Positions 7,538 through 13,261 of a DNA stretch of 33,763 nt are shown here, in pieces. Every line of letters begins with the position of its first letter. The stretch's first letter is position 1. The stretch comes from Dehalococcoidia bacterium (GTDB taxonomy: Bacteria > Chloroflexota > Dehalococcoidia > Tepidiformales > Tepidiformaceae). The notes below the pieces were generated by a model that saw nothing but the letters and a program-made list of their open reading frames with translations, did not search any database and had not been told where the DNA came from. The DNA lies in NCBI GenBank assembly GCA_020432045.1, contig JAGQHB010000112.1:1-33763 (forward strand). The letters are read 5' to 3'. The position numbers and the translations under genes were made by a program.

Positions 7538-7555
7538 GAGCCAACTCCTTCATGA

Positions 7556-7573
7556 TCTCACCGTGTGGTGAGA
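7556..7573 (-). promoter_or_regulatory. Perfect 7-bp dyad in leader of the secreted-protein gene
   Basis: TCTCACC (7556-7562) and GGTGAGA (7567-7573) are exact inverted repeats around a 4-base loop. The dyad lies between the candidate transcription start and the ribosome-binding site (7545-7550). It could be an RNA hairpin next to the Shine-Dalgarno or a dimeric repressor site. Confidence 0.45.
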
Positions 7574-7594
7574 CGATTTGGGGGGCTCTCATGC

Positions 7595-7626
7595 ACCGTA
7601 CCCCCCCCCCCACAGTCGAATGTCAA
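7595..7626 (-). promoter_or_regulatory. Candidate promoter with G11 spacer tract
   Basis: On the minus strand, a perfect -35 TTGACA (7621-7626) is followed by a 20-base spacer ending in eleven consecutive G, then TACGGT (7595-7600) as a possible -10. A 20-base spacer is longer than the optimum of 17, so the promoter should be weak as sequenced and stronger if the tract lost about three G. The leader to the ATG at 7537 would be about 50 nt. Confidence 0.45.
7601..7611. repeat. Homopolymer C11/G11
   Basis: Eleven consecutive C on the plus strand. It is the longest homopolymer I noticed in the window and lies in a promoter spacer, so its length could vary by slippage. Its length is also the base count most likely to be wrong in an assembly. 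Confidence 0.9.
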
Positions 7627-7669
7627 GACCTTTGGGAATCTCGATGGTTGAGTACGCGACCGCCGTGCG

Positions 7670-7698
7670 TTGACAGCTTCTGCGTTCACTCTTATCTT
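7670..7698 (+). promoter_or_regulatory. arsM promoter
   Basis: Perfect -35 TTGACA (7670-7675), 17 bases, then TATCTT (7693-7698). Transcription would begin near 7705, giving a leader of about 33 nt. It is divergent from the G-tract promoter, the two -35 boxes being 43 bp apart. Confidence 0.6.
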
Positions 7699-7704
7699 TT
7701 GTTT

Positions 7705-7722
7705 CATCGTAAAAAACCGATG
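7705..7722 (+). promoter_or_regulatory. Inverted repeat at the arsM transcription start
   Basis: CATCG (7705-7709) and CGATG (7718-7722) flank an A-rich centre right after the -10 of arsM, a position where an ArsR dimer could block transcription. The nine bases GTTTCATCG at 7701-7709 also occur exactly at 6371-6379, over the start codon of arsR. Assigning it to ArsR is a guess. Confidence 0.3.
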
Positions 7723-7737
7723 GAGGTTTTCCCAGCC

Positions 7738-8616
7738 ATGACCGAACGTACCGCTGAAGAAGTCCGCGAGTTCGTCTCCCGTTCATACGGGGCCCGCGTC
7801 CGCCCCGTCCTCGAACAGGTGGAAGCAGAAGGAGCCGTTTGTTGCGGCCCCGACTGCTGCGCTCCCGCCTCTAACACCGTCGAAACCCTGCAGCTCATCG
7901 ATCTTACGCCGGCGGCGGACGCCTGCTGCGACACCTCGGCCGGCGCCGATTGCTGTGGCGACACGTCCAGCGAGGTCGAGATCGTCAATATCGCCCGCCT
8001 TTACCAGGAGACGGATATCAGCGACCTGCCCTCGACAGTCACCGATGTCGCCTTTGGTTGCGGCAATCCCACCGCTATCTCGGCGCTCCAGCCCGGAGAA
8101 GTCGTGCTCGACCTCGGCTCGGGCGGCGGCATCGATTGCTTCCTTGCGGCGAAGATGGTCGGCCCCGAGGGCAAGGCCATTGGTGTCGACATGACCGACG
8201 AGATGATCGCCCTCGCGCGCAAGAACGCCGACAAGATCGGCGCCACGAACGTTGAGTTCCGCAAGGGCGAGATCGAAACACTCCCGGTCGACGATGCCAG
8301 CGTCGACGTCATCATCTCGAACTGCGTCATCAACCTCTCGCCGGACAAGTCCCGGGTCTTCCGCGAAGCCTTCCGCGTCCTCAAGCCAGGCGGACGCCTC
8401 CAGGTATCCGATATCGTCTGGACACAGGACGTCCCCGAAGACGTGAAGGGGGATATGGAGAAGTGGGCCGGCTGCATCGCCGGTGCGCTTCTCGAACGTG
8501 ACTACCTGGCCGGTATCACGGCCGCGGGCTTCCACGACGTCACCAGTGTCGCCAGCGAATACCCCAAGGGCCGCGGCCTCGCTTCGGCCGCCGTCGTCGC
8601 CTTCAAACCGCGCTAA
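7738..8616 (+). CDS. arsM: Arsenite S-adenosylmethionine methyltransferase
   Basis: Cytoplasmic enzyme that methylates As(III) with SAM to mono-, di- and trimethyl arsenicals. The SAM motif is [13 protein letters not shown] (about 123-134). The three cysteines expected to bind arsenic are visible in their conserved settings: C108 in FGCGNPT, C196 in [12 protein letters not shown] and C246 in [10 protein letters not shown]. Before the catalytic domain is an unusual cysteine-rich segment with four adjacent Cys pairs (35/36, 40/41, 63/64, 72/73), a possible metalloid-loading site. The start at 7738 is favoured by GGAGG (7722-7726); an ATG at 7720 would overlap that site. It has its own strong promoter. 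The arsR gene lies 1.3 kb away on the other strand and an MFS transporter follows downstream. Confidence 0.93.
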
Positions 8617-8709: not shown

Positions 8710-9948
8710 ATGAACCTCGCCGCCCCCATCCGCCAGCCCGCGCTCCACGGTCACCGCTGGCTCTCGGTCGTGGCGGCGTCCGCCCTGATCAACACGAGCT
8801 ACGGCACGCTCTCCTACTCCTTTAGCGTCCTCGTCACTCGCTCGGCGATGGGAGGAGACCTCGGCACCGGCGCCGTTGCCCTCGGCTTCAGTGTGGCGCT
8901 GCTGGTCTCCGGGGTCGCCGCCATTGCCGCCGGCGCGATCGCCGACGTTTTTGGCTGCCGCCGACTGCTGGCCGCCGGATCCGTCCTGGGCGCCATCTCC
9001 CTTGGATTGCTCTCGCTCTGCAACGAACCGTGGCAGGCAATCCTGGTTATGGCCTTCGTTATGGGTCCGGCCATGGCTGCCACCTTCTACGAACCCGTCT
9101 ATGTCCTGATGAATCGCTGGTTCTCCGCGGACGAACGCCCCCGTGCGTACGGTGTGCTCACGCTCCTCAGCGGCGTCTCCATTTCGATTTTCACTCCCCT
9201 CACCCGGCTCCTGGTCGATGCCCTTGAATGGCAGGGGGCGGTCGCAGTCCTTGGCGCGATTCTTGTGACGGTGGGGCTCACGGTCGCCGCTCTGCTGCCC
9301 GAGGGCGACCTCCCCGAGTCCGCCACCACCGCCTCGAAGCGGCTCCGCAGTCTCGGAAGTGACCTGCTCGACGGCCTCCACCACACGACGGCGCCGTTCT
9401 GGGCTTTCTCGATCGCCTTCTTCATCGGCACCGCGGCGTTCAGCGGCTTTTCGTTCCATATGATCTCGCAGCTGGAAACCCGCGGGTTCAACGAAGGCGC
9501 AGTGGCCGCGGCGATCGGCGTTACCGGGCTCGTCAGCCTCCCGCTCAGGCTTGGCCTTCCCGTGCTCTCCGCGCGAGTGTCGGGTTCGACGCTGTTGGCG
9601 GTTTGTCTGGTCATCCTCGCTGGCTCGTCGGTACTGGCTTCACTCACCGTCAGCTGGTGGCAGGTCTGGCTCTACGTTGGAGTCTTCGGCGCAGTCTTCG
9701 GGGCGGTCTATCCGCTGCGCGCGCTTGCTGGCAGCGAACGATTCGCCGGCCCCTATTTCGGCCGTCTACTCGGAATCCAGGCGCTGCTCGTCGCCTTCGG
9801 CCGTGCCGCCGGTCCGCTGCTCATTGCCGTCATCGGCACCGACCGCGCGGGTTACGAACTCGGCTTTCGCATCGCCGGCGCTGTCCTTGCGCTCTCAGCG
9901 ATCGCGGGCTGGGTCGCATTGCGGTCGATGCCACGGTCAGACGCCTGA
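8710..9948 (+). CDS. MFS transporter, 12 TM
   Basis: A 412-residue inner-membrane permease with about twelve hydrophobic segments in two six-helix halves and a cytoplasmic loop near residues 195-220 (LPESATTASKRLRSLG). The MFS loop 2-3 signature is recognisable as GAIADVFGCRRLLAAG (about residues 76-91). The second half contains GRAAGPLLIAVIG. The substrate cannot be read from sequence. It follows arsM by 94 bases beyond a hairpin, so export of a methylated arsenical is conceivable, but this is not the ArsB, Acr3 or ArsP fold and I would not assign ArsJ. The start ATG at 8710 has no clear Shine-Dalgarno. Confidence 0.8.
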   Translation: MNLAAPIRQPALHGHRWLSVVAASALINTSYGTLSYSFSVLVTRSAMGGDLGTGAVALGFSVALLVSGVAAIAAGAIADVFGCRRLLAAGSVLGAISLGLLSLCNEPWQAILVMAFVMGPAMAATFYEPVYVLMNRWFSADERPRAYGVLTLLSGVSISIFTPLTRLLVDALEWQGAVAVLGAILVTVGLTVAALLPEGDLPESATTASKRLRSLGSDLLDGLHHTTAPFWAFSIAFFIGTAAFSGFSFHMISQLETRGFNEGAVAAAIGVTGLVSLPLRLGLPVLSARVSGSTLLAVCLVILAGSSVLASLTVSWWQVWLYVGVFGAVFGAVYPLRALAGSERFAGPYFGRLLGIQALLVAFGRAAGPLLIAVIGTDRAGYELGFRIAGAVLALSAIAGWVALRSMPRSDA

Positions 9949-9991
9949 CCCGGGCAAGCCAGGCGTCCGGCCGCGGCTCAATCAGGCCGGA

Positions 9992-10342
9992 TTAGTGACG
10001 GAGCGACCGCTCCATCCGTTCGCGCTGTTCGCGCATCGCCTCGTCCGAAAGCAGCTGGTCCCGGTTCGGGTCCAGGTCGACTTTGTGCTGGACGATCGAC
10101 TCGGGAACCTTGTGCGCATCCAGCTGTTCGGCGAGCAGGGCCACCATCAGAGGGCCGCTCTCGCCGTCGCGGTCGTAGATGAACTCCGAATCCAGCCAGT
10201 AGGCGTGCCGGCGGAAGCCCTTTTTCACGAGGAAGTAGCTCCCGCGGATCTCTTTGATCCGCCCAAGCCCCTGTCCGTCCATCGTCACGACTTCGTCACC
10301 CGTCGCCGGGGCAATATTGCGTTGTTTCGTTGGGGTAGTCAT
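9992..10342 (-). CDS. PRC-barrel/DUF2171-like small protein
   Basis: A soluble 116-aa protein. Residues 12-60 (GDEVVTMDGQGLGRIKEI, then GSYFLVKKGFRRHAYWLDSEFI) look like the small beta-barrel of DUF2171/PRC-barrel proteins, in which a polar strand pair is followed by 'Y-W-x-P/D' entry residues. The second half is predicted helical and highly charged (DPNRDQLLSDEAMREQRERMERSLRH). The start is ATG at 10342 with AGGAG seven bases upstream. It is the first gene downstream, on the same strand, of a c-di-AMP riboswitch about 170 bases away, so its expression may respond to c-di-AMP, a signal tied to turgor and cell-wall state. That link is inferred from position. The molecular function is unknown. 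Confidence 0.7.
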   Translation of the reverse strand: MTTPTKQRNIAPATGDEVVTMDGQGLGRIKEIRGSYFLVKKGFRRHAYWLDSEFIYDRDGESGPLMVALLAEQLDAHKVPESIVQHKVDLDPNRDQLLSDEAMREQRERMERSLRH

Positions 10343-10408
10343 TGCGAATCTCCTGTTCCGCTGCTGTGAGGTCCTCCTGGGGGACGTGGGATTGGGTGCG
10401 CGCCACGG

Positions 10409-10426
10409 GCCCGGACATGGCCGGGC
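10409..10426 (-). other. GC hairpin between riboswitch and PRC-like gene
   Basis: GCCCGG (10409-10414) and CCGGGC (10421-10426) form a 6-bp stem with a 6-nt loop. On the minus strand no T-tract follows, so it is not a canonical terminator. It lies between the riboswitch and the downstream start codon and might take part in expression control. Confidence 0.35.
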
Positions 10427-10469
10427 TGGCGGCTCGTGCAGCGCGCGTCTCGGGTGCGGGTGGGTTGCG

Positions 10470-10496
10470 TCAGGTGAGGTTTGGCAGGCTGTTCAT
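10470..10496 (-). CDS. Candidate 8-codon leader ORF after the riboswitch
   Basis: ATG at 10496 opens an ORF of eight codons (MNSLPNLT) ending in TGA at 10470. GGAGG (10502-10506) stands five bases before the ATG, one of the best ribosome-binding sites in this region. The Shine-Dalgarno is the 3' arm of the hairpin at 10498-10519. It could be a leader peptide whose translation is gated by the riboswitch, or chance. Confidence 0.3.
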   Translation of the reverse strand: MNSLPNLT

Positions 10497-10497
10497 T

Positions 10498-10519
10498 GAA
10501 GCCTCCACGTTGGAGCTTC
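10498..10519 (-). promoter_or_regulatory. Hairpin able to hide a Shine-Dalgarno
   Basis: On the minus strand, GAAGCTCC and GGAGGCTTC are complementary with one bulged base around a short loop. The 5' arm directly abuts the 3' end of the riboswitch core and the 3' arm contains GGAGG, so pairing would hide the ribosome-binding site of the 8-codon ORF. This is the geometry of a translational expression platform. Confidence 0.45.
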
Positions 10520-10640
10520 CGTTCGCCGGCGGGGTTAGCTGACGGGCTACGGCCGGAGCGGTCCGCTTCGCATTCTGCGAATGAGCCCCACGGTTCTGGT
10601 TCCCCCGTCCCGTGTTCACGGGTTAGGCGGTCGACCTCTC
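10515..10640 (-). promoter_or_regulatory. c-di-AMP riboswitch (ydaO-yuaA)
   Basis: The minus strand carries the family's most conserved blocks in order: CGCCTAACCC (P1 and first junction), ACGGGGGAACC (about 10598-10608), TGGGGCTCATTCGC leading into a small hairpin (TTCGC/GCGAA), then CCCGTCAGCTAACCCCG (10530-10546), the hallmark sequence, followed by CCGGCG, which can close P1 with CGCC. Core limits are about 10520-10636. These RNAs bind cyclic di-AMP and usually control cell-wall hydrolases, potassium or osmolyte transport. Here the next gene on the same strand is the PRC-barrel-like protein at 10342. A separate hairpin GGTCGA/TCGACC (10629-10644) overlaps the 5' side of P1 and could compete with it. 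Confidence 0.9.
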
Positions 10641-10649
10641 GACCCTTCC

Positions 10650-10678
10650 ACCCTATGAGCTGACGCCGCGACTTTCAA
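10650..10678 (-). promoter_or_regulatory. Promoter of the riboswitch transcript
   Basis: On the minus strand, TTGAAA (10673-10678), 17 bases, then TAGGGT (10650-10655). Transcription would begin near 10643, just before the riboswitch core. The -10 is a poor match (3 of 6). Confidence 0.45.
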
Positions 10679-10689
10679 CCGCTACCTGG

Positions 10690-10723
10690 GCGAGAATCTC
10701 GCAATTTCACCGCACATGCGGTG
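10690..10723. promoter_or_regulatory. Two adjacent perfect dyads upstream of the riboswitch promoter
   Basis: GCGAGA-A-TCTCGC (10690-10702) and CACCGCA-CA-TGCGGTG (10708-10723) are exact inverted repeats five bases apart. They lie 11 bases upstream of the -35 of the riboswitch promoter and 130 bases after the rimO stop. They could be regulator sites or part of a rimO terminator, though neither has a T-tract. From 10724 to 10856 I see nothing else. Confidence 0.4.
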
Positions 10724-10856
10724 CGATTCGCGGGAATTTACGTCGAGGATTCGCGCCAGTTGCATCGCGTTTACACACCAGCAACCGCACGAGTCCGTTC
10801 CCGAGAAGCTGGCCCGCTGCTTGTGAACGCAATCACACCAAACGCACGCTACGACC

Positions 10857-12158
10857 TCACACAACCCGTCCAAACAGGTCGTACTCGCTCGATTCCTCGA
10901 TGCGCACGCGGACGCGCCTGCCCGCTTCGGCGCGTCCGCGTGCCAGCACCATACCGTCGACTTCCGGGGCTTCGCGGTACGTCCGCCCGGCAACGACGGG
11001 GTTGCCATCTTCGTCTTCGCCCGAACCCTCGACGAGCATTGGCAGTGTCTTGCCGACGAAGCGCCGCGCCTTTTTCGTCGCGATCCGCTGCTGCTGCACC
11101 ATGAACCGTTCGCGCCGCTCATGTTTCACTTCGTCCGGCACCTGGTCTTCGAGGTCCACTGCTTCAGTCCACTGCTGCCGCGAATAGGTGAAGCAGCCCG
11201 CGTGGTCGAAGCCGATCGTCTTCGCAAATGCCAGCAACTCCTCGAATTCGGGCTCCGTCTCTCCGGGGAACCCTGCGATAAACGAGGTCCTCAGCACGAT
11301 GTCCGGCATGGTGGCACGCAACTTGCCCACGAATTCGTGTACCCGCTCGATATTGTGCGGCCGCTTCATCCGGCGAAGCGTCGCCTCCGAACCATGTTGC
11401 AGCGGCACGTCCAGGTAGTGGACGACGTTCGGGATGGCCGCCATCGTCTCGATGAGCTGGTCCGAAACGCGACTGGGATAAGCGTACATAAGACGTAACC
11501 ACGTCTCTGCCCCTACCGCTTCCGACAGTATCTGAAGCAGTCCCGGCAGACCCCTGGCCACGCCGAGGCCCATATCCTCGCCCCACGCCGTCGTGTCCTG
11601 CCCGACGAGCACCAACTCTTTCGCCCCGGCTTCCACCAGCCGCTGCGCTTCCTTCACGAGGAGCCCGGCCGGGGCAGAACGCAGCCCGCCCTTGATCTTC
11701 GGGATTACGCAGAACGTGCAGGGAGCATCACAGCCGTCGGAGATCTTCAGATAGGCGCTGGGTCCGGTGACCTTTGCGTGCTCAGGGATGTCGTGCACCG
11801 CGTCCACGTCCACCTGCAGCAGCTTTGCCACGTCCCGCCACTGGCCGACACCGAAGACATGGTCGACCGCCGGTACCTCGGAGCTGAGCTGTGCCCCGTA
11901 GAGCTGGGTCATGCAGCCCGCGACGATGAGCGTTTGGTCCGGGCGCTTGCCTGCCGCGAGCAGTTGCACTGCCTCCATAGACTGCGCCTGGCTCTGTTCG
12001 ATGAATCCGCAGGTGTTTACAACGATGGCATCGGCGTCGGCCGCGTTCAACACGGGCAAGAGTTCGCCCCCGGCCAACAGTCGCTCAAAATGTTCGCTGT
12101 CGACGTCATTCTTGGGGCAGCCAAGCGTGATGAGATGATAGGTCTTCGGTTGTGCCAC
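10857..12158 (-). CDS. rimO: Ribosomal protein S12 methylthiotransferase RimO
   Basis: Radical-SAM enzyme that adds a methylthio group to the beta-carbon of an aspartate in ribosomal protein S12. The N-terminal UPF0004 domain holds three cluster cysteines (C14 in LGCPKND, C50 in NTCGF, C82 in AGCMTQ). The radical-SAM triad is C143, C147 and C150 in SDGCDAPCTFCVIPKIKG. A C-terminal TRAM domain ends in EYDLFGRVV, typical of RimO rather than MiaB. The length of 433 aa is normal. The start is GTG at 12158, overlapping by one base the TAG of the upstream HTH-PASTA gene (TAGTG), so the two are translationally coupled. Confidence 0.95.
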   Translation of the reverse strand: MAQPKTYHLITLGCPKNDVDSEHFERLLAGGELLPVLNAADADAIVVNTCGFIEQSQAQSMEAVQLLAAGKRPDQTLIVAGCMTQLYGAQLSSEVPAVDHVFGVGQWRDVAKLLQVDVDAVHDIPEHAKVTGPSAYLKISDGCDAPCTFCVIPKIKGGLRSAPAGLLVKEAQRLVEAGAKELVLVGQDTTAWGEDMGLGVARGLPGLLQILSEAVGAETWLRLMYAYPSRVSDQLIETMAAIPNVVHYLDVPLQHGSEATLRRMKRPHNIERVHEFVGKLRATMPDIVLRTSFIAGFPGETEPEFEELLAFAKTIGFDHAGCFTYSRQQWTEAVDLEDQVPDEVKHERRERFMVQQQRIATKKARRFVGKTLPMLVEGSGEDEDGNPVVAGRTYREAPEVDGMVLARGRAEAGRRVRVRIEESSEYDLFGRVV

Positions 12159-13261
12159 TACGGTCCTTCGCTGACGACGATTCGTACTTCGTCGCCTGGC
12201 TGTAACTGCGTCGTCGATGACGGTGATTGATCGGTCACCGTTCCCTTCGGCTGCGTGCTCTTCTCGGAAATGACGCGGACGGTGAGTCCCGCTGCCTTGA
12301 TGAGCTTTGTCGCGTCGGCTTCGGTTTCGCCTACCACGTCCGGGACGACACCCTGGGTGGCCGCCTGGGATGTGGCAGTTGCGGTGCGCGTCGTGGCAGC
12401 GCCGGTCGCCGTCGTTCCGGGGCCGGTCGTGCCGCTTGACGGCGTCGTGGTCGTATTCGGCCCCGGGTTGGCGCCGCCGTCGTCGCCCCCCAGGTTTGAA
12501 ATCAGGAACGCGGCGATCACTACAATCAGGAGGATTGCCCCCATCGCGACGATCACCACCATGTTCCGCTGCTTGTCCGCGGCACGGTGCGCGCCACCAG
12601 TCTGACTGTTGGCCCGCGTGGGACGAACATCGCCGATCATAGCCTCTGGCGGAGGAGCAGGAGGAGTCGTCGCCCGCAACGCCGGCGGCCGCGACTGCCG
12701 CGGCTGTCTCGGTGGCGCGGCAACGGGCTCTGCAGGCGGGGTAACATCGAACACTGTCCCGGCGGGCGGGACGCTGCCGACTTCTAACTGTTCACCACCA
12801 ATCACGAACTCCTGCGGCGCCAATGCCGCCGGACGTTCGCCCTGGACCGGTGGTGGCGGTGGAGGTTCTCGCCGCCGCGGGCGCGGCTCCAGGCGTGGCG
12901 CTTTTCCAGCGTCAAAGCGTGGCGGTTTTCGCCACTGCGGCCGTGAAGCGCTCGTTGGCGGGATAGGCGTGCTCATCGTCGCATGGGCTGGCTGCGTGGC
13001 AGCGGGAGCGGTTGCAGGCTGACCGGGCGGTTCGTCGCCGCGCGGGAAGAGCGTCAGCAGCTCCTGCGGGTCCATGCCGAGGTACTGGGAATATGAGCGC
13101 AGGAAGCCGCGCGCATACACAGGCGCCGGAATCACCTCGAATTGCTCTGATTCGAGCGCTTCGAGGTATCGGCGCGAGATGCGCGTATCACGCTCCGCGT
13201 CTTCCAGGGTGAGCCCCCGGGCTTCCCTCGCCCGGACGAGCCGCGACCCGATCTCGCCCAT
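12158..13261 (-). CDS. HTH-TM-PASTA membrane protein (RodZ-like N-terminus)
   Basis: A single-pass membrane protein of 367 aa. Residues 1-75 form an HTH_25 domain as in RodZ (IGSRLVRAREARGLTLEDAERDT, then YARGFLRSYSQYLGMDP). A long Pro/Arg-rich cytoplasmic linker follows, then one membrane helix (VVIVAMGAILLIVVIAAFLI, near 237), a Thr/Gly-rich extracellular spacer, and a C-terminal PASTA domain (VPDVVGETEADATKLIKAAGL). PASTA domains bind muropeptides or beta-lactams in serine/threonine kinases and PBPs. RodZ links MreB to the wall machinery. The combination suggests a cell-wall sensor or shape factor (inference). Start ATG at 13261 has GAGG six bases upstream; a possible -10 TATATT is at 13303-13308. 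Confidence 0.82.
   Translation of the reverse strand: MGEIGSRLVRAREARGLTLEDAERDTRISRRYLEALESEQFEVIPAPVYARGFLRSYSQYLGMDPQELLTLFPRGDEPPGQPATAPAATQPAHATMSTPIPPTSASRPQWRKPPRFDAGKAPRLEPRPRRREPPPPPPVQGERPAALAPQEFVIGGEQLEVGSVPPAGTVFDVTPPAEPVAAPPRQPRQSRPPALRATTPPAPPPEAMIGDVRPTRANSQTGGAHRAADKQRNMVVIVAMGAILLIVVIAAFLISNLGGDDGGANPGPNTTTTPSSGTTGPGTTATGAATTRTATATSQAATQGVVPDVVGETEADATKLIKAAGLTVRVISEKSTQPKGTVTDQSPSSTTQLQPGDEVRIVVSEGP

Follow-up and report, generated by a model that had tools for sequence, protein, structure and literature searches.

A variant c-di-AMP riboswitch recurs in front of a PRC-barrel gene in one Chloroflexota family

Riboswitches of the c-di-AMP class (the ydaO/yuaA leader; Rfam family RF00379) have an osmotic and envelope role (PMC3766115, PMC7266159), and in characterised members such as that of Streptomyces rpfA the ligand turns expression OFF by transcription termination (PMC10117811). 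Here we describe a member of this class in a 33,763-nt stretch of Dehalococcoidia DNA from the family Tepidiformaceae of the Chloroflexota (henceforth the window, meaning the whole stretch analysed), where the neighbouring gene and the downstream leader differ from those of the described systems. We consider it probable that a riboswitch of a variant type (type B, see below) in the 5' leader regulates the gene behind it, which encodes a small cytosolic PRC-barrel protein, with c-di-AMP as the presumed ligand and a presumed switching step in the leader, and that this protein is a stress adaptor, i.e., an output of c-di-AMP control and not a c-di-AMP receptor.

Comparison of the window with Rfam 15 using cmscan returned one riboswitch (RF00379) and a tRNA. 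The riboswitch match runs from 10639 to 10511 on the minus strand, spans the complete model (positions 1-134 of 134) and scores 58.5 bits against a gathering threshold of 38 (E = 3e-11). An earlier note on this DNA had assigned the minus-strand interval 10343-10640 to such a riboswitch and had proposed an Infernal search with RF00379 as a check; the significant match bears out the assignment while narrowing the aptamer to 10511-10639, the remainder of the interval being leader. The sequence CCCGTCAGCTAACCCCG is found at about 10546-10530 (minus strand), and the conserved core (CCCGUCAGCUAACC and GGGGGAACCA) is present in the cmscan alignment. The consensus UGAAU and the UA/GA junction, which are typical of the class and not demanded by the model score, are replaced by CUCAU and AG/UA, with the junction bases at 10566-10567 and 10548-10549, and we term the window aptamer a class variant on account of its score over the whole RF00379 model. 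The window genome contains 11 RF00379 copies scoring 58.5 to 89.3 bits, of which the window copy is the lowest, together with one diadenylate cyclase domain (E = 3.4e-41), from which c-di-AMP production is expected. Judged by sequence, the window element is a c-di-AMP riboswitch of the ordinary class that would bind c-di-AMP itself. The features of the locus are collected in Table 1.

Table 1. Sequence features of the riboswitch and the barrel gene in the window.
Feature	Position	Strand	Basis
c-di-AMP riboswitch aptamer (RF00379), type-B variant	10511..10639	-	cmscan and type-B signature
CUCA in place of the UGAA or CGAA of other copies; pairing possible between C10585 and G10547	10582..10585	-	segment counts, U-A/C-G covariation
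P6-loop strand GCUCCG of putative pseudoknot with 3' tail	10554..10559	-	duplex -8.7 kcal/mol
Type-B signature UAG preceding CCCGUCAGCUAACC (type A, the family majority: GAA or GAG)	10547..10549	-	counts over 142 aptamers
Putative expression platform: 3' tail CGGAAGCUCCA and hairpin GAAGCUCCA-ACG-UGGAGGCUUC over GGAGG Shine-Dalgarno	10498..10521	-	hairpin -10.4 kcal/mol
8-codon ORF MNSLPNLT with its own GGAGG, directly 3' of aptamer	10470..10496	-	read from sequence
Shine-Dalgarno AGGAG of barrel gene, seven bases 5' of ATG; can pair with aptamer tail	10350..10354	-	sequence; duplex -8.9 kcal/mol
116-aa PRC-barrel (DUF2171/PRC-like) protein with charged C-terminal helix	9992..10342	-	homologues, AlphaFold, structural matches

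The first same-strand ORF of at least 80 aa downstream of the aptamer is the ATG-initiated barrel gene, which starts 169 nt past the aptamer end, with the 8-codon ORF in between. A convergent MFS gene lies downstream of it, while rimO (10857-12158) and then a RodZ-like gene lie upstream of the riboswitch on the minus strand. Scanning positions 9850-10900 revealed neither an intrinsic (U-tract) terminator-like site nor a sigma-70-like promoter match, and the whole leader did not fold more stably than shuffled sequences (z = 0.35), by a measure that is poorly suited to GC-rich pseudoknotted RNA. Two other genes of the window caught our attention. The RodZ-like protein adjoining rimO (12158-13261, minus strand) combines an HTH_25 with a C-terminal PASTA domain, to our knowledge not a common pairing, and positions 7552-8616 (plus strand) encode an ArsM-like arsenite methyltransferase extended at the N-terminus by about 125 aa.

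We regard the 116-aa ORF as a real gene because homologues (E <= 0.001) were detected in 14 of the 61 genomes searched, the best outside the window at 1.9e-13. A profile search found homologues in 17 of the 38 family genomes, representing 12 of 18 genera, and a search of the genome collection with the single window protein found no relative. The window protein matched nothing in Pfam or NCBIfam up to E = 0.1, thus falling short of the curated cut-off for PRC or DUF2171, and among 19 aligned proteins of the family weak profile matches were obtained to DUF2171 (PF09939) in 12 and to PRC (PF05239) in 10; a PDB sequence search with the family profile gave no match. The AlphaFold model built on this alignment (mean pLDDT 82.8, reaching about 90 or higher across most of the barrel) shows strands within residues 17-67, then a helix spanning residues 92-115. 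Its top Foldseek match is the PRC-barrel protein 3htr (E = 2e-3, probability 1.00), VIA-align gave Z-scores of 8.3 to the C-terminal domain of RimM (2f1l) and 7.7 to 3htr over 65-72 residues, and the best structural matches overall were 3htr, 1pm3, RimM C-terminal domains and reaction-centre H subunits. The window protein is thus predicted to have a PRC-barrel fold followed by a C-terminal helix, sharing the barrel with the PRC-barrel superfamily and differing from it by this helix and by the lack of a Pfam or NCBIfam match of its own.

To place the locus among its relatives, we scanned 20 loci with barrel homologues for RF00379, and found the riboswitch just upstream of the barrel gene at three of them (G006, 74.0 bits; G016, 62.2 bits; G018, 59.1 bits). 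When every ORF downstream of 142 riboswitches was searched with a profile, barrel genes turned up behind exactly these three and the window copy. The pairing occurs in 4 of 38 family genomes and in three genera (G006 and G018 belong to the same genus), and the gene neighbourhoods differ among the four loci; as a rough estimate, a given gene would lie next to a riboswitch by chance in about 0.3 percent of cases (around 11 in 3,500 genes). Within the family, barrel homologues mostly lack a riboswitch, and none was found near barrel homologues in the loci tested outside the family. In the window genome (G000) the riboswitch-linked protein is the one convincing member of the barrel family. We also considered whether the linked proteins form a single orthologous clade, which was unsupported (4 label changes, 0 one-clade bootstrap trees); the protein tree is poorly resolved, with well-supported branches forcing at least two of the four label changes. 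In the literature searched, mostly open-access papers, we found no text naming a PRC barrel together with c-di-AMP.

These results bear on the remaining claims of the earlier note, which had described the 116-aa protein as the product of the first gene in the same direction and as PRC-barrel-like, had held that an early transcript end or a lack of conserved linkage in relatives would speak against the pairing, and had suggested a new c-di-AMP effector or output. The gene call and, as far as structural modelling can tell, the fold are corroborated, the linkage recurs in three genera of the family, and the leader sequence has no apparent intrinsic terminator at which a transcript would end early. 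Given the significant RF00379 match, the terminator-free leader and the pairing in three genera, a new output of the c-di-AMP regulon is a reasonable reading. The effector half of the suggestion is unsupported: nothing tested suggests nucleotide binding, and a linked riboswitch is absent from most of the family's barrel homologues.

We then compared the aptamers themselves, surveying 142 RF00379 aptamers from 32 genomes. Most of them (114) are of type A, mostly with GAA or GAG preceding CCCG-N-CAGCU, while 28 are of type B, with UAG, CAG or a triplet close to it; all four barrel-linked aptamers are of type B. The nucleotide that follows GGGG and the one preceding CCCG form U-A in 69 copies, C-G in 33 and a C-A mismatch in 4 (these counts leave out 36 of the 142 copies, which could not be parsed), and the inner junction position has A opposite G in most type-A copies and A-U, G-C or G-U in almost every type-B copy. 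The crystallised aptamer already has the C-G form but keeps UA/GA at the junction (sequence in PMC5393176). The window segment reads UCAU versus mostly GAAU or GCAU in other copies (elsewhere GGGGUGAAU or GGGGCGAAU), and among the 142 aptamers the combination UC at 10584-10583 occurs only in the window copy, each base being present singly in others. The type-B junction and the U-A/C-G changes are compensated by covariation; the window copy shares its U-to-C and junction changes with type B, whereas its UC is private.

Given that the window aptamer has the lowest score of the 11 copies and departs from a conserved segment at two bases (UC instead of GA or GC), its binding could be weakened. It could even be a decaying riboswitch that is functional in relatives, with the barrel gene expressed constitutively from its own Shine-Dalgarno, and the short ORF beside the hairpin does resemble a displaced start site. 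We nevertheless find such decay improbable: the score is well over the gathering threshold, the core is complete, P1 is present and the pseudoknot is possible, the U-A to C-G and junction-pair changes are compensated, and both odd bases are seen singly in other copies.

Of the type-B aptamers, 18 precede a gene for a ~580-aa protein, 4 one for a 55-58-aa protein, 2 those for a small protein and DnaX, and 4 the PRC-barrel gene. One type-B copy was found outside the family (G037), preceding the same ~580-aa gene, and a search of 400 Chloroflexota genomes with the exact core pattern (a strict one that misses TCG variants, applied to a set with few family genomes) gave 2 matches, both within the family and none outside. 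Type B is, on this comparative evidence, a clade-specific aptamer variant with compensatory junction changes. It might further constitute a distinct functional subclass, with an altered junction that shifts affinity, ligand stoichiometry or the choice of ligand, and with its own set of targets (the PRC-barrel adaptor, the ~580-aa membrane protein, the tiny proteins and the wall protein) apart from the genes that type A controls in the same cells; we hold this extension to be doubtful.

How the riboswitch might act on the barrel gene is suggested by the pairing options of its 3' tail. The tail (CGGAAGCUCC) has three competing partners of similar energy, namely the P6 loop (-8.7 kcal/mol), the neighbouring UGGAGGCUUC with its Shine-Dalgarno (-10.3 kcal/mol) and the barrel Shine-Dalgarno (-8.9 kcal/mol), and the proximal Shine-Dalgarno within the hairpin is paired with a probability of 0.86-1.0. 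Across the family, loop:tail complementarity exceeds that of re-paired controls. For type B, complementarity between the tail and the Shine-Dalgarno region of the first gene was -12.95 compared with -11.84 +- 0.49 in re-paired controls, a weak signal of about 2.3 sd that is absent in type A. Because the tail can pair with the P6 loop, the proximal Shine-Dalgarno hairpin or the barrel Shine-Dalgarno, translational control appears the likeliest mode. Specifically, c-di-AMP binding would lock the tail (CGGAAGC) onto the P6 loop as a pseudoknot, the ligand-free tail would pair with the downstream Shine-Dalgarno sequences, and ligand-dependent release or capture of the tail would alter ribosome access to the Shine-Dalgarno. 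This geometry would let the ligand free the Shine-Dalgarno (ON), as opposed to the OFF response of characterised members such as rpfA.

The riboswitch could instead be mainly transcriptional, with ligand binding ending transcription early within the 169-nt leader, perhaps through Rho, and the Shine-Dalgarno pairings being incidental. Known c-di-AMP riboswitches, rpfA among them, terminate on binding (PMC10117811), and the leader between aptamer and barrel gene is long (126-169 nt) in three of the four linked copies. Against this, the leader has no U-tract terminator, and in G016 the barrel gene starts just 31 nt past the aptamer, which leaves scant room for a terminator, and the tail forms a strong helix with the Shine-Dalgarno (-17.8 kcal/mol). 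On balance we rate the transcriptional mode as rather unlikely. A further question is which ORF would be regulated, since the best aptamer-adjacent Shine-Dalgarno precedes MNSLPNLT and not the barrel gene, which lies 128 nt further on. The short ORF may be a leader peptide or a vestigial start. That it is the true target, or that the terminated leader RNA itself is the product, and that the barrel gene is adjacent by accident, strikes us as very improbable, as the barrel gene comes next after a similar aptamer in three other genomes with unrelated neighbourhoods.

With translational control of the barrel gene as our preferred reading, we asked what its product might do in light of the other riboswitch-linked genes. 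In the family these encode SulP, MFS, KamA-like radical SAM and Zn-ribbon proteins, a G5/3D wall protein (in the window genome, behind one type-B copy and a small ORF) and an OtsA-like protein, the latter judged on its N-terminal sequence only. A regulon of transport and envelope genes fits the osmotic and envelope role of the class. Since PRC barrels with helical tails occur in multi-member families, a role as a protein-docking module is plausible, and the barrel protein most likely serves as an adaptor under osmotic or envelope stress, its barrel docking to proteins and carrying a helical tail.

Further genes met in the survey are recorded here in their own right. A 72-aa Zn-ribbon protein (L041, 5676-5894 of G000:C24, and relatives), 92-100% identical across the family, lies behind a type-A riboswitch in 24 surveyed genomes and is often followed by a 95-aa gene (MPYIRLSIA...). 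A second Zn-ribbon protein of 57-62 aa ending in PEWRFG (L039, 3163-3351 of G000:C79, and relatives) lies behind type-A riboswitches in 15 genomes. Behind type-B riboswitches, 4 genomes have a 55-58-aa charged protein without a Pfam match (L047, 5382-5558; L172; L139; L129), which tiny proteins ahead of dnaX (L100, L164) resemble. The commonest type-B target (18 copies) is the ~580-aa protein (L048, 3980-5701 of G000:C106, and relatives), which is membrane-glycosyltransferase-like and has no Pfam match. A two-domain PRC-barrel protein (PF05239; L174, 1451-2005 of G000:C4) lies 496 nt behind another c-di-AMP riboswitch of the window genome, after a 106-aa ORF, and in genus g7 (L287, L288) a small Asp-rich lipoprotein (ACEDNDDDNG...) is encoded next after the barrel gene, possibly in an operon.

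If the reading proposed here holds, the likely targets of c-di-AMP control gain a PRC-barrel family that is widespread and uncharacterised. Within one Chloroflexota family, two aptamer variants operate in parallel on different gene sets, with 11 copies in one genome; should type B differ in ligand response, the c-di-AMP response would be graded by aptamer subtype within a cell. Compared with the ydaO/yuaA leader, the window element shares the complete core, the order of elements, P1, the conserved 3' block and the co-occurrence with a diadenylate cyclase. It differs in the type-B junction, in which UA...GA, the usual bases flanking the P6 helix, mostly give way to AG or AA...UA or CA, adding a Watson-Crick or G-U pair, and in its PRC-barrel target and an expression platform without an intrinsic terminator. 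With Streptomyces rpfA and other wall-hydrolase leaders it has in common a c-di-AMP riboswitch in a high-GC bacterium, and a G5/3D wall gene stands behind one type-B copy; whereas rpfA is reported to be termination-based (PMC10117811), the window target is a small barrel protein and its platform looks translational. By these sequence comparisons, the locus is a known riboswitch class with a newly noticed, recurrent target, the PRC-barrel gene, on a clade-specific aptamer variant.
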